This document shows positions 1 through 37,547 of a stretch of DNA of 38,005 nt, one piece after another. The DNA comes from a virus. Each line of letters begins with the position of its first letter. Positions within the stretch are counted from its first letter, which is position 1. Under the pieces are notes generated by a model. That model had not been told where the DNA came from. It saw only the letters and a program-made list of their open reading frames with translations, and searched no databases. Position numbers and translations under genes: made by a program. The DNA is taken from positions 1-38,005 of the IMG/VR virus record IMGVR_UViG_3300008448_000255. One strand, 5' to 3'.

Positions 1-3000
1 TTTGAAGCATCTGGATTACGCGGTGCAACAGCAGAAGAGATAGCCAAGTATGGCACCAACGGTTTGTCATCCTATGAGCAGGATACTATAAACTTTGATG
101 ATAAGTACAAAGGGTACAATAAGAGTAGACTGCAGGATGCCTATAATACTTTAAAGGCTAAAGAAAGCGCTGCTACCTACTGGACCGATAGATACAGAAA
201 TGCTTTAGTTACTGAGCTAGCTTATCTTAATGCTAAAATCAAAGGTGTAAAACCTGAGATTACAGAAATAGTAAATCCAACAAGTTCACTGCAAGTTAAG
301 ATTGCACTGCAAGGTGACTTTAAGAAGCTTCTCAGACATCCAGAAGTAATTGCTGTAGCAAAGGCTAGAGAAATATCTAATCTCGATGCATTAAATATTG
401 TAATTAAAGATGAGAGGTGGTTGGCTGAAAACAGAGAAATGATAACCATAGCTGGTGTACGTATTCCTGTACAGGGTCTGAACTCTATGGAATTTATGCA
501 GGTTGCTGAATTCTTACCGGAGAACTCTGGTAACATGGTTATTCTGCCAGCTGAGATTGTAGCTAAGTCTGGTTCTGACTTTGACATTGATAAACTATCA
601 CTGATGTTCCCAAGTCTTATCAAGACATCTAAGGGAGTGTCTATGACTAAGCATGATAAGAGTCTAGCACAGAGAGTAGATGCTGATGTTCTTAAGCAAC
701 AGATTACAGATCTCTATCAGCAACTTACTGAGGCTCAGGAAGATGTATTTAATTTCACACAGGAATATCTTAAGGATATACCATATGAATTAAAGAGAGA
801 CTTCCAAGACAGTGTGCGCTCATACAAGCAAGCTATTGCTAAAGTTAAAAATGATATTTGGGATCAGCTAGAAACCGGTGAGATTTATCCAGAGTCTTTG
901 TATGAAGAGATTTATAATCTTCAAGAAGAACTCAATGATCTTTATGCAGCAGCTGCAGCTCCAATGAAAGAGTATAAAGAGTCTAAGCTAAATCCTATCT
1001 TTGATAGAATAGATGACCTGAAAACTCAGATTGCTTCTTCATCATCTAAGGGTATTGAGAATGATTTGCTTAATGCTGTTGTAGATATTATTAGTCTGCC
1101 AAGCAACTTTGTAGACCTTGTTACTCCTAACGGAACTTACTTGGTTAAGCCTCTGGCAGATGATCTGGCTGAAGATGTAAGAGATTACAATCCATTTGAC
1201 ACTGATTCAAATGAGGGTAAGGCTTATACCTATAAGAAGAAAGATAAAGATGTAAAGAGAATCTCTGCTACTAGAATCTTTGAACTGGGGTATAACCAAT
1301 ACAAACAAGAGTCTAACAACATTGGTAAGAAGACACTTGGTATGGGTGCTGTAGACAACAGTTACAATACCGTATTTAACCGTATTGGTGCATACATGTC
1401 TGCATCTGTAGAACTTGGAAATAAAGAAAAAAATACAGAATATAAAGTTACCCAAGTCATCAGAGGAATGAAACATAACACCCTGAAAGTTGGTGAAAAT
1501 GATGTCATTTCTCTATCTAATCTGTATGATGCTAACGAAGAGAATAGAATCTCTACAGTTATTTCTCAGATGATGAATGGTTGGGTAGACGTAGCTAAGG
1601 ACTCATGGGTGTTTGACATACAGGGTAACCCTGAGATTGCATCTACACTGTTGTTTATGATTCAAGCTGGTGTGCCGGTTGATCAAGCAGTATACTTTGT
1701 GTCACAGCCTATTATCAGAGACTATGTAAAACTTCAAAGAAAGATTAAGGGTGCCTTTGCTAGACCCATGAACATTCCTTCCGCAGGAACAAACATGTTT
1801 AGAGTAGAGGCTAGAAGACAGCTGATTGAAAGAATATTACCTGAAGGTTTTCAAAGATATAGTGTAAACAAAAAAGGACAGACTATAGATGCTCTTGGTG
1901 ACATGATGCTTAAGAGAACTGTGTATACTAGGTTAGTTCCTACATTCTTGGAAGAAGAAGAACCAGACTTTAGCATTGAAACACTCAAGAAAAATGTCAA
2001 AGCTAAAAACGGGTATTATACAGATACTGATGCAAAAGCATTTATCCATTTTATAGAGCTTGAGGAGATGGCAAAAGCTACCACAGCTATTAAGTTGGGG
2101 ATGAACTTTGACACAAGTAAGCTTACTTCTTTGTATGACATAAGAGAGAAACTATCTAAGGCTGGAGCACTAGAAGGTGAAACAAGATTGCCCGACAATA
2201 TTGTAGACCTTATAGAAAATAACTCACCTATTGGTAGCTTTAAGACACAGAAGCCTTTGCTAGATATGGTTGCTAATTTGTTCCCACTTAGGGACAATGA
2301 AGCACTTACTGATCATATTGCAAAGATTACTGCTAATATGCAAGACAGTGCCGTAAGAGAAAGGTATGGTAAGTCTTTTATATCTAAGGAGCAGTTGATT
2401 GCTGCTATGAGAAATGACTTTACAAACTTTGTGTTACAGCAATTCCTAAAACATCCCGGTAGATTTAATCCTAAAGGTCCGTACAAAGGTTTAGGTGTAG
2501 AGATGGAAGTTGTTCCTGTAAAGAAACTAAAGTTTGGTGCCTTTGTAGAAAATGGAAAGCTCTATGTAGATATGGACCAGATGAATACAGACTTTAAAAA
2601 AGCTTTGTATGATTCAGCAGATTACCAATCTATAAGAAAACTAGCTAGGGTAAAGCCAATTTATTTTAATAACTCTAATGATCAGATAAACAGAAATGAT
2701 TATTTCAAATTTGTATATGAGAGAGAGTTTTTAAGAAGCACTATCTCATTTGATGATTACTCTAAGACAGTAGACTTTGGTTACAGAGTAGATAGATTAA
2801 ATACTCAGAAAGAAAGTCTTGGTGATATACAGCCGGAAAGACTAGCCTATGAGGAATTCTTGAGAGATACAGCTTTGTTCAATACAATGAACATTGACTT
2901 CATGTTTAAGGATCCCTATGGTTTTGCATACCAAGCAGCTAATATTGCTGGCATGCATCCTGAACTTGCAGTAAAGTATCCATTACTTAAGTCACTATTC

Positions 3001-4167
3001 CCCGTAGAGAGAAACGGTGCAGTAAATCTTAAGTTATCTGAGCTGTTCCTTGATGTAGATAAGATGAATATCTACCATGAAAACCTAGAGGAACTTGCTG
3101 ACCCTAATGTTAAAAAGGTTGATAATGAGCTAGATAACAATGTCATTAGTAAGTTATTTACCATATTCCCAATGTTTGCTTTCTTCCAAGCAGGTCAGGA
3201 TGGTAGAGGTCAGTTCAGCTTAGCAAGAATAGTAAATACTAATAAGTATGCTAAGATCATGGATGTGGCTTCAAATTGGGCACTAAATCAAGTTCTTACT
3301 TCTGATTATGCTCCGATATTTATGGAACAGTATCAAACTTTGTTTGATGCAATGTATGCTAATCCTGTCAAGTCAGATTTAGAAGAAGAGGGTATTGATG
3401 CTATAAGCGATGAGTTTACCAATAATAATAAACCAAGACTTAAGGCTTACTACAATTATCCTTCTGAAAAAGAATCAGAAGACTTTATAAAAACTACTGA
3501 GTATGATCCTAGTGTAAGAGTATTTACTAGACCTGCAACAATGCAAAAATTCCACGAAGAGGTATTGAGTAATCTTAAAGAAGGTACTGTATTTGTCTTT
3601 AATACTAGCACTACTAAGTACTCAAGTACAAACCAGGCATATGCAGGAAATAGGTACAACAATACTTACTTAAAGGACTTAGTACTAAATGATAAAATTG
3701 CAAGTAATAAAAGGGTTCCTATGGCCAATGTTGCTGGAATAGCTACAAAGCCAGATAGCCTTATGTCAGTGGCAGATACATTCCTTACTGATGCTACTTA
3801 CCAGTCCAATATAGAAACTATTGAAAAGAATATACAAAACCTTATTAAGCTAAGAGATGAAGGTAAAATACTGCTGTTTGATGAAAGTGGTTATGGCAAT
3901 GTCTTATTAGGGTATGGGTTCAGTGAGAATTTTACTAAAGAAGATAAGGTGGTAGCAACAGCGCCAGCCCCTGAAACTTTCGTATATTTGAGTAAGAGAT
4001 TGTTTGAAGAGTTTGGTTACATAAATCCTGGTTATAGCAGAGTATCTAAAGTTACAGGATCTGGTAAAGCTCTTGCTGAACAAATAGTTGCTAATCAACC
4101 AGTTACAGATGATTCTGTAAGAGAGAAGTTTAAAGAATGCTTTAAAAGTTTAATAGGTAATGAGTAG
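1..4167 (+). CDS. crAss-like virion RNA polymerase, C-terminal part (5' partial)
   Basis: The frame is open from base 1, so the gene starts outside the window; 1388 residues are visible. At 577-591 it encodes DFDID (visible residues 193-197) in the context SGSDFDIDKL. This matches the DxDxD metal-binding loop of the double-psi beta-barrel in the single-chain RNA polymerase of crAss-like phages, which is packaged in the virion and ejected with the DNA to transcribe early genes. About 1190 residues follow the motif, in keeping with the very large size of this family. The rest is mixed helical sequence without other motifs I can name. The stop (TAG) lies inside ATGAGTAG, so the next gene starts 8 bases before this one ends, implying translational coupling. 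The TTG at 64 is not a convincing start because coding continues upstream. The family call rests on one motif, size and context. Confidence 0.82.
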   Translation, partial: FEASGLRGATAEEIAKYGTNGLSSYEQDTINFDDKYKGYNKSRLQDAYNTLKAKESAATYWTDRYRNALVTELAYLNAKIKGVKPEITEIVNPTSSLQVKIALQGDFKKLLRHPEVIAVAKAREISNLDALNIVIKDERWLAENREMITIAGVRIPVQGLNSMEFMQVAEFLPENSGNMVILPAEIVAKSGSDFDIDKLSLMFPSLIKTSKGVSMTKHDKSLAQRVDADVLKQQITDLYQQLTEAQEDVFNFTQEYLKDIPYELKRDFQDSVRSYKQAIAKVKNDIWDQLETGEIYPESLYEEIYNLQEELNDLYAAAAAPMKEYKESKLNPIFDRIDDLKTQIASSSSKGIENDLLNAVVDIISLPSNFVDLVTPNGTYLVKPLADDLAEDVRDYNPFDTDSNEGKAYTYKKKDKDVKRISATRIFELGYNQYKQESNNIGKKTLGMGAVDNSYNTVFNRIGAYMSASVELGNKEKNTEYKVTQVIRGMKHNTLKVGENDVISLSNLYDANEENRISTVISQMMNGWVDVAKDSWVFDIQGNPEIASTLLFMIQAGVPVDQAVYFVSQPIIRDYVKLQRKIKGAFARPMNIPSAGTNMFRVEARRQLIERILPEGFQRYSVNKKGQTIDALGDMMLKRTVYTRLVPTFLEEEEPDFSIETLKKNVKAKNGYYTDTDAKAFIHFIELEEMAKATTAIKLGMNFDTSKLTSLYDIREKLSKAGALEGETRLPDNIVDLIENNSPIGSFKTQKPLLDMVANLFPLRDNEALTDHIAKITANMQDSAVRERYGKSFISKEQLIAAMRNDFTNFVLQQFLKHPGRFNPKGPYKGLGVEMEVVPVKKLKFGAFVENGKLYVDMDQMNTDFKKALYDSADYQSIRKLARVKPIYFNNSNDQINRNDYFKFVYEREFLRSTISFDDYSKTVDFGYRVDRLNTQKESLGDIQPERLAYEEFLRDTALFNTMNIDFMFKDPYGFAYQAANIAGMHPELAVKYPLLKSLFPVERNGAVNLKLSELFLDVDKMNIYHENLEELADPNVKKVDNELDNNVISKLFTIFPMFAFFQAGQDGRGQFSLARIVNTNKYAKIMDVASNWALNQVLTSDYAPIFMEQYQTLFDAMYANPVKSDLEEEGIDAISDEFTNNNKPRLKAYYNYPSEKESEDFIKTTEYDPSVRVFTRPATMQKFHEEVLSNLKEGTVFVFNTSTTKYSSTNQAYAGNRYNNTYLKDLVLNDKIASNKRVPMANVAGIATKPDSLMSVADTFLTDATYQSNIETIEKNIQNLIKLRDEGKILLFDESGYGNVLLGYGFSENFTKEDKVVATAPAPETFVYLSKRLFEEFGYINPGYSRVSKVTGSGKALAEQIVANQPVTDDSVREKFKECFKSLIGNE

Positions 4168-7100
4168 TTGTCCTAATGTAAATTCCAGAGAATGGAAGAA
4201 TCTAGTCAAGGCTGTTGGTGGCTTTGAAGCACTGCGTGATTTTATGGAGAGCGGTGATATCCGCACTCCTGGAATTGTGCAAGCTAAACTTGACCAAAGA
4301 GAAAAAGATGAACTAGATTCTTTGAATCAGACTACTCCTTCTGAACCAGGTGTATCAGATGAATTCCCTGTAGTAACTTTAGAGTCATCTGCTATGAATC
4401 AGAGACTTGCTCTTGAATCTCAGCAAGAGATTATGAGAGAAGCTAGAGGAAATGAGATTATCAATAAGCTGGTAGATAGACTAAAGGGTCAGACAGGTAT
4501 TCAGGCAACTTTTATTACTGAAGCAGACGCTGCTTACATTGTACAAAATGCTGGTGCCGCCTATAACGGTGAAGCATCATTCTTTAACAATGGTCAAGTG
4601 TACCTGGTAATAGGAAAGGTTACACCGGAGAAAGTTCTACATGAATTTGCACATGCTATTGTAAGAGCTATAGCTGCCGAGAACCCTACTTTATTTGTAA
4701 GTCTTTACAATGAACTAGCCTCTACTGCAGAGGGTCAAGAGATTATCCAAGACATTAGAAATCTCTACCCTAATATGGAGTTTAAGGATAAGCTACAGTT
4801 TATGGAGGAAGCAATTGTTACTTCCATTGGTAGAAAATCTGCAAACAAAATAACTCAAGCAAGAGAAACAGATCTGTTCTCTAAAGTTGTAAGTAAGATT
4901 CTATATGCTATAAAGCAATTACTTAGAAAAATATATAAGGGTAACAAGATAACTGTTGAAAATCTAGATGTAAATACTACACTAGATCAGTTAGCAGAAA
5001 TGCTTGCTAGCAAAGACTTCCAGATTAAAACAGAATTAGTAAGTCAAGCAGACATAGTATCTTTCTCTAGGGATTACAGAGAGGAGATGATCAATGACCT
5101 TGCATCTGTTGAGCAAAAAGAGCTCAATATGATAAGCAAGAGAATGTATAATCTTGTTAGAACTCAGTCTGGTTTCCTAAACACCAAGAACTACAAAGAG
5201 ATTTCTAAAGCTCTCCGTGATAAAATGGAAAGAGCTGACCTTACTGAGATAATCGGTAACCTAAGACTATTCCAAACAGAAGGTGAGAGAATCTTTTCAT
5301 CACCTGAAGAAGAAGAGAAGTACATGGCAGCTCATGCTGAGGCACTTCTAAACAGTATGCTCAGATTTAATCAGGCATCTAAAAGAATTCTTGAGTACTT
5401 CAAAGACATCAATAAGAACATAAATAACAAAGAAGCTTTGCTTCGTGGTTATTATCTGAATAGAGTAATTAAAGACTGGAGCAAGTTTATTAACTACGCT
5501 AAAGATCAGCTAGCACTAAATGATAATTTTAAAGCTGGCCATCCTTTGTTCAATCTTATAAATGAGATGAAGGATAATCTTGATCAGTCTAATAAATACA
5601 GTGACAAGATTTATTCAGCCGGTGTAAGTGAAATGCTTGTAGAGCAACTTACTCCAATGATGTCAAACATTGATGCTCACTATGAGAGAATAATCAAAAG
5701 GTATGAAGACAAAGGAGCTGACAAGAGCATTATAGATTACTATAAAAGAGAATGGGATCTTGTTAGACTTACCCCTGAAAGAATAGAAGGATTGCTAAAA
5801 GGAGAGCTGGGTGATGCGCATGCTCTTAACTCATATCTAGAAGGTTATATGCATAACCAGGATCCAATTGTTCTTGGATTTGCCGGATATGTAAAAGATA
5901 GATTCATGGAAATGAGTGCCATGATTCAAAGAAATTATAATGCATTTATAAATGACATTGAGGGTTTAGTAAAAGATGCTGGGTATAATACAGCATTTAA
6001 AAGAATGCATATGGGTAAAGACATGCTTTACCTAGATGTAGTTGAAAGAGATGAGGATGGTAACCCAACTAAGTCTGTATGGAAGTTTATTAGTCCTTAT
6101 CAAGGATATGAGGGTGAGCAAAAGAAACTAGAAAAAAATCTAGAGGATGCTAAAGCAGAGCTGAATGAAACAAACTCTGATGAGGCAAAGCTTAAGTATG
6201 TAAATGCTATGGCAGCTCTTGAAGCATTCAAGGCTGACTTCATGTACAGACCCTACACAGATGCATACTATTCACTACACGATTTATTCTTAGATGATAT
6301 AGGTAAAGAGGCATACCTCAGAATGCACAATATCCTGGCTAAGATCCGCGGCTTAAACAGCAACGTAACTACACCAGATGAGATATTAGAGAATCTTGAG
6401 GATGCTAAAATCTATTGGAGAGAGTACAGACAATTAAAGTCTATGTACTATGCTGATGGTAGTGCTAAGAAAGAAGGCACAATGGATTATGATGTAGCTG
6501 TTAGATTAAAGGAATACTCTAATAAGTCTAATAAGTTTCACCAGTATGTACAAAGAAAGGGTGCCTTCCAAAATGCTTATCTTGCTTATATTCAGACACT
6601 TAAGGATAACAAAATAGATGGTGTAGAGTATGAGCAAAAGAGAGAAGCTTGGTTAAAGAACAATATTGTAACTAAGCTTAATGCTGAGTTCTACAAAGAG
6701 AGAGCTAGAATATTCTCTGAGCTGGCTAAACTGGCCGGAGATGATCCTACACAGAAAAGAATCATTGAAGTATATGGAATGATCAATAACATGATCAGTT
6801 CTTATAGAGATAATAACTCTCACCCGATTGGTTCTGAAATGCCGGAAGCCCTTCTAGAAAAGATTAAAACTCTTGAGGATGAGCTAGAAGATTTAAGAAA
6901 CAAAGTAGAGACAAAGAAAACAGGTAAACTCACTAGAGCAGACTGGGATTTCTATAATGCTTATAAGGCTAAACTAAAAGCATATGCTGAAGGTACTAGT
7001 GAGGCTCCTTCTGCAGAAGATACTGTAATCTACAGTGAGCTCAGAAATAAACTCAAAAAAGATGGAGCTATATCAGATGAGGAACTAGGTGATATTGAAG

Positions 7101-9754
7101 CAAGAAAACTGCTGTTCCAAGAACTGAATGACCTACAACAAAGAGTTGTATCGCAGGACTACATAGATACTGTAAATGAGTTTATCAGCAATAGCCCAGA
7201 AGCGTTAGAGTATATAAAGAAAGAACTAAAGCAGAGTGCATTTAGTGCGTCTGATATAGAGATGATGAGTTACCCTCAGCATCTTTCTGCTTTGATGGCT
7301 AAGAGTCCTGAGTTTGCTGCATGGTTTAATGCTAACCACATGACCCGCTCATACTTTGATAGCACTGGTACAGAGGTTACTAAGTATGTACCAACAAGAG
7401 CTTGGACATATATTAAGCCTAATAGCTCTAAGTACTATGAGACCACTGATATCTTAGATGAAAATGGGGATGTGGTTGAAGTGATTGAGGGTGTACCAAC
7501 ACTAGCATATTTCTACAGAGAAATTAAAGACTCATACACTGATGAAAATGGTAATGAGGTAAAACTCAAGACTGAAAGAGTCAGCATGCTAGAGGCAATC
7601 AGAGCAGGTAGACCTATAGAAGAAGCTACAGTAGACTCTAGAGGTAGATGGTTACCAAGACAGAATGCTAAGGATCAGAAATTTATGAATCCTAAGTATG
7701 CTGACATGAGATCATCATCTCCTAAGAAGTTTGCGTTGCTGCAAAAGCTTATTGAAAAGCATCTTGAGATTCAGGAAGAGCTTCCATATAACAGTAAACT
7801 AGATTTAGAAGCTCCAAGATACCGTAAGACACAGTATGAGACATTGTCATCTAGAACCCTGGATGAGAACGTTAAAATGAATCCTATATCTGTATGGGCT
7901 AGAAACATTAGAGCTGCATGGACAAAGGCTCCTGATGATGTTGAAGAAGGTTTCAACCCTGCAGATAATCTGGTAGCCGTAAATGCAGACTTGTATGATG
8001 ATGAGTTTGCCAAGATACCAATTACTGGTATGTTTAATCTACCAGAGGATGAGGTATCAATGGACTTACTTACAGGCATGATGAGATACATGCAGTCTGG
8101 TGTAAGACAAAAGACTTTGCTGGACATGCTTCCTATGGCAAGAGCTTTACAGAAACTTGTACAGACTCCTCCTAATAAACTTAAGGAAGACATAGGTGCT
8201 ACTGCTAAAAACATGGGTTACTTGTCCAGAGTAGTAAGTAGTATAACTTCTCCTGTAACAGGTAAGGGTAGGAATATCAGGGCAATGGCTATTAACTCTT
8301 TTATAGAAAAGGAGTTTGAAGGAAAAAACAATGCTGGTTTTGTTAGTGATAACGTAGCAGCACAGAAGTTTGTAAATAATCTTCTTAGTCTGTCATCTAA
8401 GACATTCTTCTCATTTAATATTCCTGCGGCTATTAAGAACAGCTTTGGTGCTAGATTCCAATCTATGATTGAAGCAGCTGCCGGTAATAACTTTAACTGG
8501 GCAGACTATGGTAGAGGAACTGTATGGGCCAACATGGTCACTATGGAAATTAGCATGCAGGTCTATAAGTTTGGTAAGAAGTCAATGAACTACCAACTTG
8601 TAGAACTTATGGATCCTTCTCAAGGTAGACTGCAGAGTCAAATCAGAGAAGGTGCCGGCATATCTAAGTCTGCTACATCAGACACTGTTGACCTGAGCAT
8701 CATGACCAATGTGAGAAAGTGGACAGAATTAAATGCTACTCTCAGCATATTCGGTGCTATGCTTACTAAAGAGCAAGTAGAGGTTACCGATGCCAATGGT
8801 AAGGTCAGCAAAATCACATATGATAAAGCTTGGGAAGTAAAAGATGGAGTAATCCAACTTAAAGATGGTATTGATAAAACTTATGCCCCCGGTGGAGCAA
8901 AGTATAAAGCCTTTGTAAAGAAAGTACATGGAGTTACTATGGCACTGAACGGTGCGTATGATAGCTTCAATCAGCCTATGGCTAACAGATTCCTATTGTA
9001 CAGAATGGTAATGTTCTTGAAAAAGTACTTTACCGAGATGTTCATGAATAGATTCCAAGCCACAGTTAAGGGTGGTAGAATAGTACCTAGATATGATGGT
9101 AACATGGATACCATTGCAATGGGTTACTATGTAGAGTTCTTCAAAGCAGTAAAGAACATGTTTACCTTGTATAAGGGTAACCTCAGAAACATGACTGAGG
9201 GTGAGATAATGGCCTCTAAGAAAACACTAGCTGAAATAGGATTGCTTGTAATTTTATCTCAACTTCTTATAGGACTTCTGTTTGGATGGGATCCTGATGA
9301 TGAAGATAGATATGAGAAGCTCAGACAAAAGAGTGGAGCACTACCATTCCTAGGTGTAGCAGATGATCCTGATCATCCATTTAGAGCACAGGGCTGGTTT
9401 GAGAATCACCTGCTGAATCTTGCAATCCAAGTAGAAGCTGAGAATGATTCATGGTTACCATATCCGGGCATGGGTCTAGATGCATATGCAGATATGTTTA
9501 AACTAGAGTCAATTGCAATGACAGCAACTGTAGATAGATGGGTAGACCTTATAGGTCAGGCTACAAACTATGTAGACTATTTAGTTACTGGTGACCAGAA
9601 AGCTCTTTACAAAAGAGAAGTTGGTCCATATGACTGGCAGCAACAAGGCAGTGCAAAGTTTTTAAATCATTTGATGAAAACACTTACATTTACGGGTACA
9701 TCCGTACAACCAATTCAAGGAATAAAAGGATTAGAATCAAGAGAAAATAGATAA
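4160..9754 (+). CDS. giant zincin metalloprotease-domain protein, probable virion cargo
   Basis: A protein of 1864 aa. Near the N terminus (residues 161-165) it has HEFAH, the HExxH zinc-binding and catalytic motif of zincin metallopeptidases. E216 or E217 in FMEEAIV could be the third ligand, as in gluzincins. Most of the remainder is highly charged and helical with likely coiled coils (roughly 290-480, 660-700 and 900-950). A hydrophobic stretch at about 1693-1713 (AEIGLLVILSQLLIGLLFGW) could be membrane-inserting. Giant proteins next to the RNA polymerase in crAss-like phages are thought to be packaged and ejected, and zincin domains are reported among them. The protease might mature cargo or cut a host protein; the sequence does not say which. 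Start ATG overlaps the polymerase stop by 8 bases; the stop overlaps the next start (TAATG). Confidence 0.75.
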   Translation: MSSCPNVNSREWKNLVKAVGGFEALRDFMESGDIRTPGIVQAKLDQREKDELDSLNQTTPSEPGVSDEFPVVTLESSAMNQRLALESQQEIMREARGNEIINKLVDRLKGQTGIQATFITEADAAYIVQNAGAAYNGEASFFNNGQVYLVIGKVTPEKVLHEFAHAIVRAIAAENPTLFVSLYNELASTAEGQEIIQDIRNLYPNMEFKDKLQFMEEAIVTSIGRKSANKITQARETDLFSKVVSKILYAIKQLLRKIYKGNKITVENLDVNTTLDQLAEMLASKDFQIKTELVSQADIVSFSRDYREEMINDLASVEQKELNMISKRMYNLVRTQSGFLNTKNYKEISKALRDKMERADLTEIIGNLRLFQTEGERIFSSPEEEEKYMAAHAEALLNSMLRFNQASKRILEYFKDINKNINNKEALLRGYYLNRVIKDWSKFINYAKDQLALNDNFKAGHPLFNLINEMKDNLDQSNKYSDKIYSAGVSEMLVEQLTPMMSNIDAHYERIIKRYEDKGADKSIIDYYKREWDLVRLTPERIEGLLKGELGDAHALNSYLEGYMHNQDPIVLGFAGYVKDRFMEMSAMIQRNYNAFINDIEGLVKDAGYNTAFKRMHMGKDMLYLDVVERDEDGNPTKSVWKFISPYQGYEGEQKKLEKNLEDAKAELNETNSDEAKLKYVNAMAALEAFKADFMYRPYTDAYYSLHDLFLDDIGKEAYLRMHNILAKIRGLNSNVTTPDEILENLEDAKIYWREYRQLKSMYYADGSAKKEGTMDYDVAVRLKEYSNKSNKFHQYVQRKGAFQNAYLAYIQTLKDNKIDGVEYEQKREAWLKNNIVTKLNAEFYKERARIFSELAKLAGDDPTQKRIIEVYGMINNMISSYRDNNSHPIGSEMPEALLEKIKTLEDELEDLRNKVETKKTGKLTRADWDFYNAYKAKLKAYAEGTSEAPSAEDTVIYSELRNKLKKDGAISDEELGDIEARKLLFQELNDLQQRVVSQDYIDTVNEFISNSPEALEYIKKELKQSAFSASDIEMMSYPQHLSALMAKSPEFAAWFNANHMTRSYFDSTGTEVTKYVPTRAWTYIKPNSSKYYETTDILDENGDVVEVIEGVPTLAYFYREIKDSYTDENGNEVKLKTERVSMLEAIRAGRPIEEATVDSRGRWLPRQNAKDQKFMNPKYADMRSSSPKKFALLQKLIEKHLEIQEELPYNSKLDLEAPRYRKTQYETLSSRTLDENVKMNPISVWARNIRAAWTKAPDDVEEGFNPADNLVAVNADLYDDEFAKIPITGMFNLPEDEVSMDLLTGMMRYMQSGVRQKTLLDMLPMARALQKLVQTPPNKLKEDIGATAKNMGYLSRVVSSITSPVTGKGRNIRAMAINSFIEKEFEGKNNAGFVSDNVAAQKFVNNLLSLSSKTFFSFNIPAAIKNSFGARFQSMIEAAAGNNFNWADYGRGTVWANMVTMEISMQVYKFGKKSMNYQLVELMDPSQGRLQSQIREGAGISKSATSDTVDLSIMTNVRKWTELNATLSIFGAMLTKEQVEVTDANGKVSKITYDKAWEVKDGVIQLKDGIDKTYAPGGAKYKAFVKKVHGVTMALNGAYDSFNQPMANRFLLYRMVMFLKKYFTEMFMNRFQATVKGGRIVPRYDGNMDTIAMGYYVEFFKAVKNMFTLYKGNLRNMTEGEIMASKKTLAEIGLLVILSQLLIGLLFGWDPDDEDRYEKLRQKSGALPFLGVADDPDHPFRAQGWFENHLLNLAIQVEAENDSWLPYPGMGLDAYADMFKLESIAMTATVDRWVDLIGQATNYVDYLVTGDQKALYKREVGPYDWQQQGSAKFLNHLMKTLTFTGTSVQPIQGIKGLESRENR

Positions 9755-31654: not shown

Positions 31655-31700
31655 TGTTTATTGAGTTATTTATAGTATTTTGATTAATAAAGACTTACTG

Positions 31701-32705
31701 ATGGCAAGAAAACCAAGTAAACAGGGGGAACTCTGTATAGCCGCTCTAAAGAAATTTCCAAAGACACCTATTCTTACCCTAGCTAAAAAGATTTATAGTG
31801 AAAACTCACTACATTTTTCTAGTGTAGAACATGCTAGAAGTGCTCTAAGAACCTATGCCGGTCTTACTGGTAAAGCAAATAGAGAAGCTGCATCTAATAA
31901 AGAAATCCAAAGAGAACCGCAGTATAAATACAATCCTTTTGATGACATCCCAGAGTCATTTGAAGAGATCCGGGAGCCATATGTACTAGGTACTGCTACC
32001 AAAAAGATATTAGTTCTATCCGATATCCACTTCCCTTATCACAATGCTAAAGCTTTAAAGACAGCAATAAACAAGGGTATAGAAGAACAGGTAGATTGTA
32101 TAATTCTTAATGGTGATATACTTGATTTCTACTCACTTTCTGACTTTGATAAGGATCCTAGCAAACCTAAGTTCCGTAAAGAAATAGAACTAGGTAAGTG
32201 GTTCCTTAATGAACTCAGAATTGCATTCCCTAAAGCTCAGATATACTACAAGATTGGTAACCATGAGATGAGACTAGAAAGATATCTAAAGGTAAAAGCA
32301 CCGGAAATCTTTGATACTGATGAGTTTAGACTAGAGTTCCTACTAGAGTTTGCCAAGCATCATGTAATACTAATAGATAAGTACACTGTAATTAAAGCAG
32401 GCAACCTTAATATTATTCACGGTCATGAATACAGAGGTGCCGGAGGAGTATACCCTGCCAAGTACATCTATGGTAAATCAAAAGTCAATACACTTTGTGG
32501 TCACTACCACAGGTCTAGTACTTACCTAGATAAAAACATGGACGGACATTACCACGGAGGATTCTCAACAGGATGTCTGTGTGAACTATCTCCTGATTAC
32601 ATGCCATACAACGAATGGGTACATGGATTTGCTGTTGTAACTATGAAATCCGGTGGTAACTTTAGTGTTCAAAATCTCACCATTGACAATGGCGAAATCA
32701 GATAA
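31701..32705 (+). CDS. metallophosphoesterase with N-terminal helical domain
   Basis: A 334-aa protein from ATG 31701; the frame extends upstream only to a TTG at 31680. The first 60 residues are a basic helical module (LCIAALKKFPKTPILTLAKK, HARSALRTYAG), possibly DNA-binding. The calcineurin-like phosphoesterase core follows: SDIHFPYH (D108, H110), NGDILDFY (D139), GNHEMRLERY (N187, H188), IIHGHE (H240) and CGHYHRSS (267-270). All metal ligands of the fold are present, so the enzyme should be active on a phosphodiester or phosphomonoester; nucleic acid or a signalling nucleotide are both possible. It begins a two-gene rightward unit surrounded by leftward genes. Confidence 0.85.
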   Translation: MARKPSKQGELCIAALKKFPKTPILTLAKKIYSENSLHFSSVEHARSALRTYAGLTGKANREAASNKEIQREPQYKYNPFDDIPESFEEIREPYVLGTATKKILVLSDIHFPYHNAKALKTAINKGIEEQVDCIILNGDILDFYSLSDFDKDPSKPKFRKEIELGKWFLNELRIAFPKAQIYYKIGNHEMRLERYLKVKAPEIFDTDEFRLEFLLEFAKHHVILIDKYTVIKAGNLNIIHGHEYRGAGGVYPAKYIYGKSKVNTLCGHYHRSSTYLDKNMDGHYHGGFSTGCLCELSPDYMPYNEWVHGFAVVTMKSGGNFSVQNLTIDNGEIR

Positions 32706-32707
32706 CT

Positions 32708-32935
32708 ATGCCTACATACATCAAAGCTGGACTATACAAACCTCCATTTACAATGGATGGAGAATTTGACACTCCTGAGATTTACATAGACTCAGAGGTA
32801 TTCCAGGTTATTGATGCTGAGGAAAACATGGTTGTACAGATAACGTATGAAGAACTCAGAGGTATAATGGCAATTATGGCTGCAGAACAAGAAAAAAGAC
32901 ACTTGTTTATAAAAGCAAAGATTGATAAGAACTAG
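32708..32935 (+). CDS. 75-aa protein of unknown function after the phosphoesterase
   Basis: Two bases after the phosphoesterase stop, hence co-transcribed. Beta-rich start (MPTYIKAGLYKPPFTMDGEF) and a C-terminal helix (YEELRGIMAIMAAEQEKRHL). Ends with TAG, overlapping the convergent gene by four bases. Function unknown. Confidence 0.65.
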   Translation: MPTYIKAGLYKPPFTMDGEFDTPEIYIDSEVFQVIDAEENMVVQITYEELRGIMAIMAAEQEKRHLFIKAKIDKN

Positions 32936-33258
32936 TCTTTACCTTCTGTGTCTATATACTGTTGGATAATCTGAGTTAAATCCGGTATCCTGTAGTAAGG
33001 AACTCTAGATACAAGTTCACTAAACTTTACTACTTCACGCATGGCATCATCCATATTGACACCTTCTACGTTCCATAGTTCTTTTATAACTACGCCATGT
33101 TCTTTGTCAATAGTATCCACCAATCTGTTCAATAACATCTTGGTTTGGTTTCTATTAAACCATTTAATTGTAGAACACTCATCCGCACTAAATACAGACA
33201 CTTGTAACCATACAAGTAGGTTTAGAATCTGAATTTTCTCTTTTTCTAGTTCAGTCAT
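32932..33258 (-). CDS. protein of unknown function (108 aa)
   Basis: Not recognised. Mainly helical: ILNLLVWLQVSVFSADECS, NQTKMLLNRLVDTIDKEHG, LTQIIQQYID. No motifs for catalysis. It follows the tRNA-shaped element by ten bases on the same strand, so the two probably share a precursor transcript. Confidence 0.65.
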   Translation of the reverse strand: MTELEKEKIQILNLLVWLQVSVFSADECSTIKWFNRNQTKMLLNRLVDTIDKEHGVVIKELWNVEGVNMDDAMREVVKFSELVSRVPYYRIPDLTQIIQQYIDTEGKD

Positions 33259-33267
33259 AAGATTGTT

Positions 33268-33339
33268 TGGTTTCCTGTGTAGGAGTCGAACCTACATGTT
33301 CCTGAATATCAGGAGCTTTACCAGTTAAGCTAACAGGAA
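33268..33339 (-). tRNA. tRNA-shaped RNA with 3-nt anticodon loop (pseudo-tRNA?)
   Basis: The cloverleaf is intact except for the anticodon loop. Acceptor TTCCTGT/ACAGGAA (7 of 7), TA, D arm GCTT-AACTGGTA-AAGC, T, anticodon stem CCTGA/TCAGG (5 of 5) closing only TAT, variable AACAT, T arm GTAGG-TTCGACT-CCTAC (5 of 5), discriminator A and an encoded CCA. All other positions have standard lengths; the molecule is four bases short exactly at the loop. If two stem pairs open, a seven-base loop GATATTC forms, with UAU (Ile) at the anticodon but A instead of the near-universal U at position 33. It may be a non-decoding tRNA mimic or a dead tRNA. Confidence 0.6.
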
Positions 33340-33359
33340 TACTGGGTTCATCCCAGTAT
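33339..33359 (-). other. 8-bp hairpin abutting the 5' end of the tRNA-shaped element
   Basis: ATACTGGG and CCCAGTAT pair perfectly around a 5-base loop (ttcat on the + strand). On the - strand it ends at the first base of the tRNA-like acceptor stem and lacks a U tract, so it is not a typical terminator. It lies between the gene ending at 33372 and the tRNA-like element. Confidence 0.65.
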
Positions 33360-33371
33360 ATGTAAATAAGT

Positions 33372-33776
33372 TTAGGGTAGTCGGTCATAATCTTTAAAGT
33401 AACCCCAAAGGATCATGACACAAGATACTAAATAGACACTGAATAAACCTAAAAAAACATCAGTGCCTATCTCTCTGTAATCAAGGATATCCTTGAATAA
33501 CCAGAATAATACAACAAGCCAGATAAGAATTAATCCTATATAATGTTTAGGATCATTCTTGAAATCAAACTTGATGTATTTAAAAATTTTAATCTTGGAC
33601 TCCATAAACAAGTTAAACTTGTAACTAAGAGCCCAAAGAACAACAAATAAAAGACCCATTGCCAATCCTATGTAAAATAACCACTCGGTTATTAAACCTC
33701 CGATAAATGCAAATCCAGCAGAAACTGCCATCATCATAATACCGTTAGTAATAGGTGAGGAGGTGTTTGTTTTCAT
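33372..33776 (-). CDS. four-helix membrane protein (134 aa)
   Basis: Start taken at ATG 33776 (MKTNTSSPITNG), 4 bases after the upstream stop; a Met 12 codons earlier lies inside that gene. Four hydrophobic segments: about 11-30, 33-50 (FYIGLAMGLLFVVLWAL), 79-97 (YIGLILIWLVVLFWLF) and 105-125. The loop between helices 2 and 3 is basic (MESKIKIFKYIKFDFKND). Likely inner-membrane; no further function visible. Confidence 0.7.
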   Translation of the reverse strand: MKTNTSSPITNGIMMMAVSAGFAFIGGLITEWLFYIGLAMGLLFVVLWALSYKFNLFMESKIKIFKYIKFDFKNDPKHYIGLILIWLVVLFWLFKDILDYREIGTDVFLGLFSVYLVSCVMILWGYFKDYDRLP

Positions 33777-33780
33777 TTTG

Positions 33781-34206
33781 CTAATATAAAGTAGGATTTT
33801 TACTTTTAACACAGCTCATCTTGTGGTAGCCTTCGCCCTCACAATATTCACATTTAAAACTTTTTAACAAGCTTATTATGTTAGCCTTACCAACTGGATT
33901 CATAGAATGAACCATACATATCGGTAAAGGACTGTCAGTATCTATACAAAAATTTATTAACCACTTTGCACAGTCGTATCCACTAAGTTCAGTATCACCA
34001 AGATCATGATCAAAGGATATAATAAGTGGTAATTTATCTTCAGCATACATGTTAGCTACATAATCTACAAACTCTTCGTAGGTCTTAACTGTATGCCATT
34101 TTCTATCTGCATAAAGAGGATTCTGTGTATACTCAAAAGCATCCTTAGCTAATCTATCATCATCTAAAAACAGATGATAACAAGGTCCTGTAAGTTTTTC
34201 TGGCAT
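33781..34206 (-). CDS. cREC (cyclic-phosphate processing receiver) domain protein
   Basis: A 141-aa protein. HLFLDDDR (D15-D17), PLIISFDHDLG (D66, H67, D68), GYDCAKWLI and CMVHSMNPVGKANI (H100, N103) are the pattern I know from the cREC family: a receiver-like fold with extra His residues, proposed to process 2',3'-cyclic phosphate RNA ends in RNA repair settings. A C-terminal extension has Cys 119, 122 and 132 (CEYCEGEGYHKMSC) that may bind zinc. It is two bases from the radical SAM gene, implying co-expression. Activity in phages is not proven. Confidence 0.65.
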   Translation of the reverse strand: MPEKLTGPCYHLFLDDDRLAKDAFEYTQNPLYADRKWHTVKTYEEFVDYVANMYAEDKLPLIISFDHDLGDTELSGYDCAKWLINFCIDTDSPLPICMVHSMNPVGKANIISLLKSFKCEYCEGEGYHKMSCVKSKNPTLY

Positions 34207-37458: not shown

Positions 37459-37473
37459 GTTAATTAAAATTAG

Positions 37474-37547
37474 TACTCCTATCAGGGATCGAACCTGAAA
37501 CCTACAGATTAGAAATCTGTTGCTCTATCCAATTGAGCTATAGGAGC
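37474..37547 (-). tRNA. tRNA-Arg (anticodon UCU)
   Basis: A complete cloverleaf: acceptor GCTCCTA/TAGGAGT (with one G-T pair), TA, D arm GCTC-AATTGGATA-GAGC, A, anticodon arm ACAGA-TTTCTAA-TCTGT with anticodon TCT, variable AGGTT, T arm TCAGG-TTCGATC-CCTGA, discriminator A. CCA is not encoded (ACTA follows). It reads AGA, which is the dominant arginine codon in this window, so it probably supplements the host pool. Confidence 0.93.

Follow-up and report, generated by a model that had tools for sequence, protein, structure and literature searches.

A tRNA-shaped, apparently non-decoding element nested in a conserved short reading frame of a phage operon

On the minus strand of a viral contig we found a tRNA-like RNA, with an anticodon stem that closes only three bases, that lies whole and in frame within a conserved short open reading frame (ORF). 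The window, that is, the entire stretch of DNA analysed (38,005 nt), constitutes the whole 38-kb virus contig; its features are listed in Table 1. We give even chances to the reading that a former phage tRNA is now kept as a tRNA-shaped element that does not decode, placed within a translated leader gene, and that it most likely acts as a processing element of the RNase P/Z type that is opposed by translating ribosomes; the mechanism is what we infer from a structure and a frame that were observed directly. A preliminary description of the locus had recognised the RNA correctly (tRNA shape, all stems paired, three-base loop, T loop TTCGACT, CCA) and had missed the reading frame. Its observation is confirmed, and its interpretation is supported in part.

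Table 1. Coordinates of the tRNA-like element and of neighbouring features in the window
Feature	Position	Strand	Basis or remark
tRNA-like RNA including CCA	33339-33268	minus	sequence, ARAGORN, Rfam RF00005
tRNA-like body, 69 nt	33271..33339	minus	RF00005, fold, covariation in nine relatives
Acceptor stem	33339-33333/33278-33272	minus	7/7 paired
D arm	33330-33315	minus	stem 4/4 paired
Anticodon stem CCUGA/UCAGG	33313-33309/33305-33301	minus	5/5 paired
UAU triloop closed by anticodon stem	33308-33306	minus	
Variable region	33300-33296	minus	
T arm, loop UUCGACU	33295-33279	minus	stem 5/5 paired
Discriminator A	33271	minus	
Encoded CCA	33268..33270	minus	sequence; present in 5/9 contigs with the element
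45-aa ORF MTDYPKLIYIYWDEPSIPVSLTGKAPDIQEHVGSTPTQETKQSYD	33251..33388	minus	frame and ATG position shared by nine contigs; substitution pattern
8-bp hairpin AUACUGGG-AUGAA-CCCAGUAU, within the ORF and adjoining the tRNA 5' end	33339..33359	minus	folds, aligned sequences
146-aa hydrophobic protein gene, directly upstream	33372..33812	minus	ORF list, relatives
cRec (cyclic-phosphate processing receiver) domain protein gene, two genes upstream	33781..34206	minus	Pfam PF20274, E 8e-21
108-aa gene, directly downstream	32932..33258	minus	ORF list, relatives
Metallophosphoesterase gene (phrog_221), convergent neighbour	31680..32705	plus	query for relatives

The preliminary description had called for a comparison with a tRNA model, and the element matched RF00005 with 52.6 bits (E 1.1e-8), against a gathering score of 29. 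The cloverleaf is its minimum-free-energy fold (-23 kcal/mol, z = -3.3). By score, cloverleaf, T loop of the form UUCRANY and D-loop GG, the element belongs to the structural tRNA family RF00005, while the seven-base loop, U33 and readable anticodon of a decoding tRNA are absent; ARAGORN labels it 'tRNA-???' with a 2-base anticodon.

To find relatives, we searched with two DNA patterns, which yielded four further viral contigs, and with the neighbouring metallophosphoesterase, which yielded four more (L030, L032, L034 and L035). With the window, the element is thus present at the same place in nine contigs, all of them metagenomic. One pattern-found contig, G001 (L001/L023), shares the triloop and differs from the window RNA once, in the variable region; it is a separate contig whose neighbouring proteins are 94-95% identical to those of the window. 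In the three others the loop has seven bases and the anticodon reads UUA. In whole-locus scans, eight of the nine contigs passed the RF00005 gathering score, and the ninth, L030, reached 42.7 bits once its locus was scanned alone, the range among relatives being 42.7-57.9 bits. The acceptor, D and T arms are identical in the five closest members. CCA is unencoded in L030, L031, L032 and L034, and the T stem of L035 has two unpaired positions unless a bulge is permitted. In L031 (G004; 1165-1237, minus strand) the 108-aa downstream gene is gone, and the junction lies at the tRNA 3' end, leaving CCA unencoded.

In a metallophosphoesterase tree, several inner branches of which are weak, the deepest member L034 and the pair L032/L035 sit at the base of the group; on this placement the element is old in the clade, and L024 and its kin probably had it replaced. 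Ordinary tRNAs occupy its slot in the related contigs L024 and L029; in L024 (6238-6796, minus strand) there are four of them. A more distant relative, L036, has odd tRNA-like sequences in that slot (7200-7400, minus strand): a tRNA called as class II whose arms are unusual, and a Leu-like start without a complete tRNA. Neither a loose tRNA pattern nor a peptide profile added members to the nine contigs, and a covariance model (R1) run on 85 loci returned besides them only ordinary tRNAs and weak, chance-level matches. DNA patterns run against 84,980 bacterial and archaeal genomes matched neither an ancestral host tRNA nor the genome of a host, and in the collections searched no named phage was related to the window by DNA.

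The alignment of relatives, also proposed in the preliminary description, revealed covariation of the stems. Across the nine sequences 94.7% of cells are paired, and 8 of 21 pairs have changed on both sides. The covariation score of 0.284 was reached by none of 500 shuffles (0.150 when shuffled); since related sequences can beat shuffles, more weight falls on the slid controls, which gave at most 0.124 and at most 2 pairs changed on both sides. Compensatory changes were seen in the acceptor, D, anticodon and T stems. In L032/L035, acceptor pair 2 passed from U-A to C-G and pair 3 from C-G to U-A; a D-stem pair was exchanged from U-A to G-C, and a T-stem pair of L030 from G-C to A-U. The anticodon stem occurs as CCUGA/UCAGG, UCCCG/CGGGA, CCCCG/UGGGG, CUUGG/CCAAG and UCUU/AAGA, and a cloverleaf was obtained for all members folded. 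As read from these comparisons, the substitutions show that the tRNA body has been selected as an RNA, and the element is more than a dead tRNA.

The anticodon loop is the least conserved part of this body and is too short in three of the nine members. The loops read UAU, UAU, AUUUAAA, ACUUAAA, AUUUAAA, GAAA, CUUGUAG, AUAUUAA and AUUUUAC: UAU in the window and G001, GAAA in L030, and five different seven-base sequences in the others. A tRNA-shaped RNA with a preserved body and no ability to decode is thus the right description for the window, where the loop has collapsed to UAU and the body is conserved with compensatory changes. Against the 73-nt body of a related ordinary phage tRNA-Lys, the exactly four bases lost are one base missing throughout the family plus one codon, a number that the reading frame described below explains. 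Compared with its relatives, the window has a 3-nt deletion plus substitutions, and the fourth 'missing' base is also lacking in the relatives with seven-base loops.

The whole tRNA lies in frame within the short ORF in all nine contigs, with the stop just past the tRNA and the ATG exactly 49 nt 5' of it in every one. The tRNA bodies measure 72 nt (six members), 69 nt (two) or 66 nt (one), all multiples of 3. Stops across the tRNA number 0 in the ORF frame, compared with 21 and 26 in the other two frames. The aligned peptides share invariant M, L, YWD, V, G, A, GS, P and Q. Substitutions are protein-like over the 49 nt (16 codons) before the tRNA (P = 0.0015, column shuffles) and over the whole ORF (P = 0.0005, column shuffles). 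For the tRNA portion alone, selection at the amino-acid level was undetected (P = 0.47), and the absence of stops stands out at P about 0.05; the marks of coding inside the tRNA are thus its openness and its 3n length. In a control set of 34 ordinary phage tRNAs, 7 were likewise spanned by an open frame beginning with ATG. Given this and the P of 0.47, the ORF could in principle simply run through the tRNA, and the case for it rests on conservation over nine contigs and not on one open frame. Every aligned contig has this one frame, begun at a fixed position, running across the tRNA; the substitution pattern shows that the segment before the tRNA evolves like protein. The ORF peptide had no family match in Pfam or PHROG, and tblastn against phages returned nothing convincing.

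The gene order is cRec protein, 146-aa hydrophobic protein, tRNA/ORF and 108-aa protein, in a tight operon; no promoter or terminator was found close beside the tRNA. In the window, the 146-aa gene overlaps the start of the ORF by 17 nt, and the ORF stop and the start of the 108-aa gene share 8 nt (ATGACTGA). L032 and L035 lack the 146-aa gene, and their ORF start instead overlaps the cRec gene at its end. At the other end, the ORF stop lies from 4 nt before to 23 nt past the downstream start, which overlaps or adjoins it in all relatives retaining the downstream gene. Such overlaps would be expected of translational coupling. Members of the cRec family are predicted to act on 2',3'-cyclic phosphate ends during RNA repair (PMC7824862), and the family's link to the element is contextual. 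L030 has two cRec-like copies in tandem.

Directly before the tRNA, the bases of the 8-bp hairpin are also the ORF codons for YWDEPS. The hairpin occurs in 8/9 contigs (weak in L032), and one of its pairs is exchanged in L030, L031 and L035, from CUGGG/CCCAG to UUGGG/CCCAA. We regard it as tentative, since the conserved YWDE is encoded by these very bases. It might hinder RNase P.

Among the ideas offered in the preliminary description, a processing signal between mRNAs would fit these data best. RNase P and RNase Z recognise features of the elbow/acceptor type in tRNA and mascRNA (PMC11693755). We infer a processing element because the kept parts (acceptor, T arm, D-loop GG and elbow) are those recognised by RNase P/Z, and the freed part is the one needed by the ribosome. 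The conserved elbow and acceptor would make the element a substrate for RNase P, RNase Z or equivalents, and in a polycistronic mRNA it would separate the upstream cRec and 146-aa genes from the downstream 108-aa gene; alternatively, the output may be a small tRNA-like RNA released from the mRNA. Ribosomes translating the short ORF would unfold the element and oppose the cut, and the same translation would bring them to the downstream start codon. A more specific and decidedly doubtful version is a translation-sensing mRNA switch, whereby ribosomes on the ORF would disrupt the tRNA-like fold and leave the operon mRNA whole; when translation falters, for instance upon cleavage of host tRNAs in defence, the RNA would fold and be excised by RNase P/Z, re-partitioning an operon with a predicted RNA-end repair gene.

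The main rival to the processing element, though an unlikely one, is a decoy: the body of a released RNA would bind a host factor that targets or senses tRNA, and the anticodon arm would offer anticodon nucleases no target. The conserved body, the fast-changing anticodon arm and the neighbouring gene of a predicted RNA-repair family would all suit it. Mutated loops that let phage tRNAs evade anticodon nucleases have been proposed (PMC10264068), and the element resembles such tRNAs in its altered loop. However, those tRNAs are proposed as replacements for cleaved host tRNAs and are held to decode still, which the element cannot do in at least three of nine members; its loop is unconserved, and in the window collapsed. 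The decoy has no tie to any host factor, and by itself it leaves the conserved reading frame unexplained. A decoy for anticodon nucleases, as first suggested, is not favoured either, the loop being both the least conserved part and too short in 3/9.

Quite unlikely, in our judgement, is that the former tRNA is retained chiefly for what it encodes, having been captured to make up the 3' half of a small gene, with its stems persisting only through shared ancestry and codon constraint. Such a capture would account for the conserved frame, start and 3n lengths, for the strongly protein-like substitutions ahead of the tRNA, and for a body close to the ordinary phage tRNA-Lys(CUU) of L103 and L108. 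Yet the compensatory stem changes cost amino acids (L/V and K/N at one D-stem pair; P/S and E/R at two acceptor pairs), and inside the tRNA the protein-level signal is undetected.

A working tRNA with unusual decoding, an ochre suppressor in some members and altered or frameshifting in others, appears very improbable, even though six relatives have seven-base loops with UUA, UGU, AUU or UUU and five encode CCA. The anticodon varies among close relatives on a near-identical body, which a decoding tRNA would not tolerate. Moreover, no anticodon can be presented by loops as short as those of the window and L030, L033 has C33 in place of U33, and the UUA found in three loops would read, and so suppress, UAA, which these phages use most often as a stop (TAA terminates 27 of the 45 called window ORFs). 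Judged from these sequences, decoding by the element is very unlikely. UAA recoding was also considered for the UUA-anticodon relatives and rejected: TAA is the commonest stop, and reading it as sense brings no marked gain in ORF length.

A dead tRNA or an assembly error is hardly credible: loop loss by itself would fit, but a pseudogene would not keep compensating stems in all four helices, the element has long been kept across the clade, and a sequencing indel is contradicted by the same triloop in the independent G001 and by a different short loop, GAAA, in L030. The preliminary description had taken normal seven-base loops in relatives as a sign of assembly error; six relatives do have seven bases, but the error does not follow, as G001 shares UAU.

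The processing element is most readily compared with mascRNA and menRNA, from human MALAT1 and MEN-beta, which likewise have a preserved elbow and a compact anticodon-equivalent loop and form part of longer transcripts (PMC11693755). RNase P and RNase Z cut both of them by way of the elbow, and mascRNA is not aminoacylated (PMC11693755). The element shares their pattern of conserved elbow and acceptor without a conserved anticodon arm. It differs in its phage origin, its normal-sized D arm and its place inside a translated ORF rather than a noncoding RNA; processing is here predicted, and we claim no homology. The tRNA-Lys(CUU) of L103 and L108 has a near-identical D arm and 5' half, a cloverleaf and an encoded CCA. 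Unlike the element, it has a 73-nt body, position 26 and a seven-base loop, and lies in tRNA arrays; members of the window family fall 1, 4 or 7 bases short of 73 nt and share the frame of the ORF. Like tmRNA, the element combines a tRNA-like domain and a reading frame without a functional anticodon. In contrast to tmRNA, its frame runs through the tRNA-like part and not through a separate tag domain, and the G3-U70 alanine identity is absent (the third acceptor pair is C-G, U-A or U-G); neither Rfam nor ARAGORN calls a tmRNA at this place. Finally, RNase P sites in bacterial mRNAs of polycistronic operons are cited in PMC11143913; the element would resemble them if RNase P processes its polycistronic mRNA as proposed, and its putative site differs in being a full, covarying cloverleaf derived from a tRNA.

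The locus is a natural case in which a single stretch of DNA maintains both a complete tRNA cloverleaf and an open coding frame, having given up decoding. It separates the tRNA parts kept by selection (elbow, acceptor, T and D arms) from the part that was dropped (anticodon), and yields a testable prediction, namely that a tRNA shape may serve phages as a processing signal within translated mRNA. Calls of 'tRNA-???' or 'tRNA-Stop' in phage genomes may accordingly be neither pseudogenes nor suppressors.

The label 'crAss-like' given to the phage in the preliminary description is unsupported. Its DNA polymerase is about 31-34% identical to those of diverse phages, and two giant proteins, examined to test that idea, had no solved-structure relative, phage proteins included. 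These are encoded by adjacent ORFs of 1367 and 1864 aa (64-9754, plus strand) almost without family matches. The window also encodes an ordinary tRNA-Arg(UCU) at 37473-37547 (minus strand; 70.9 bits), which matches the phage's frequent AGA codons.
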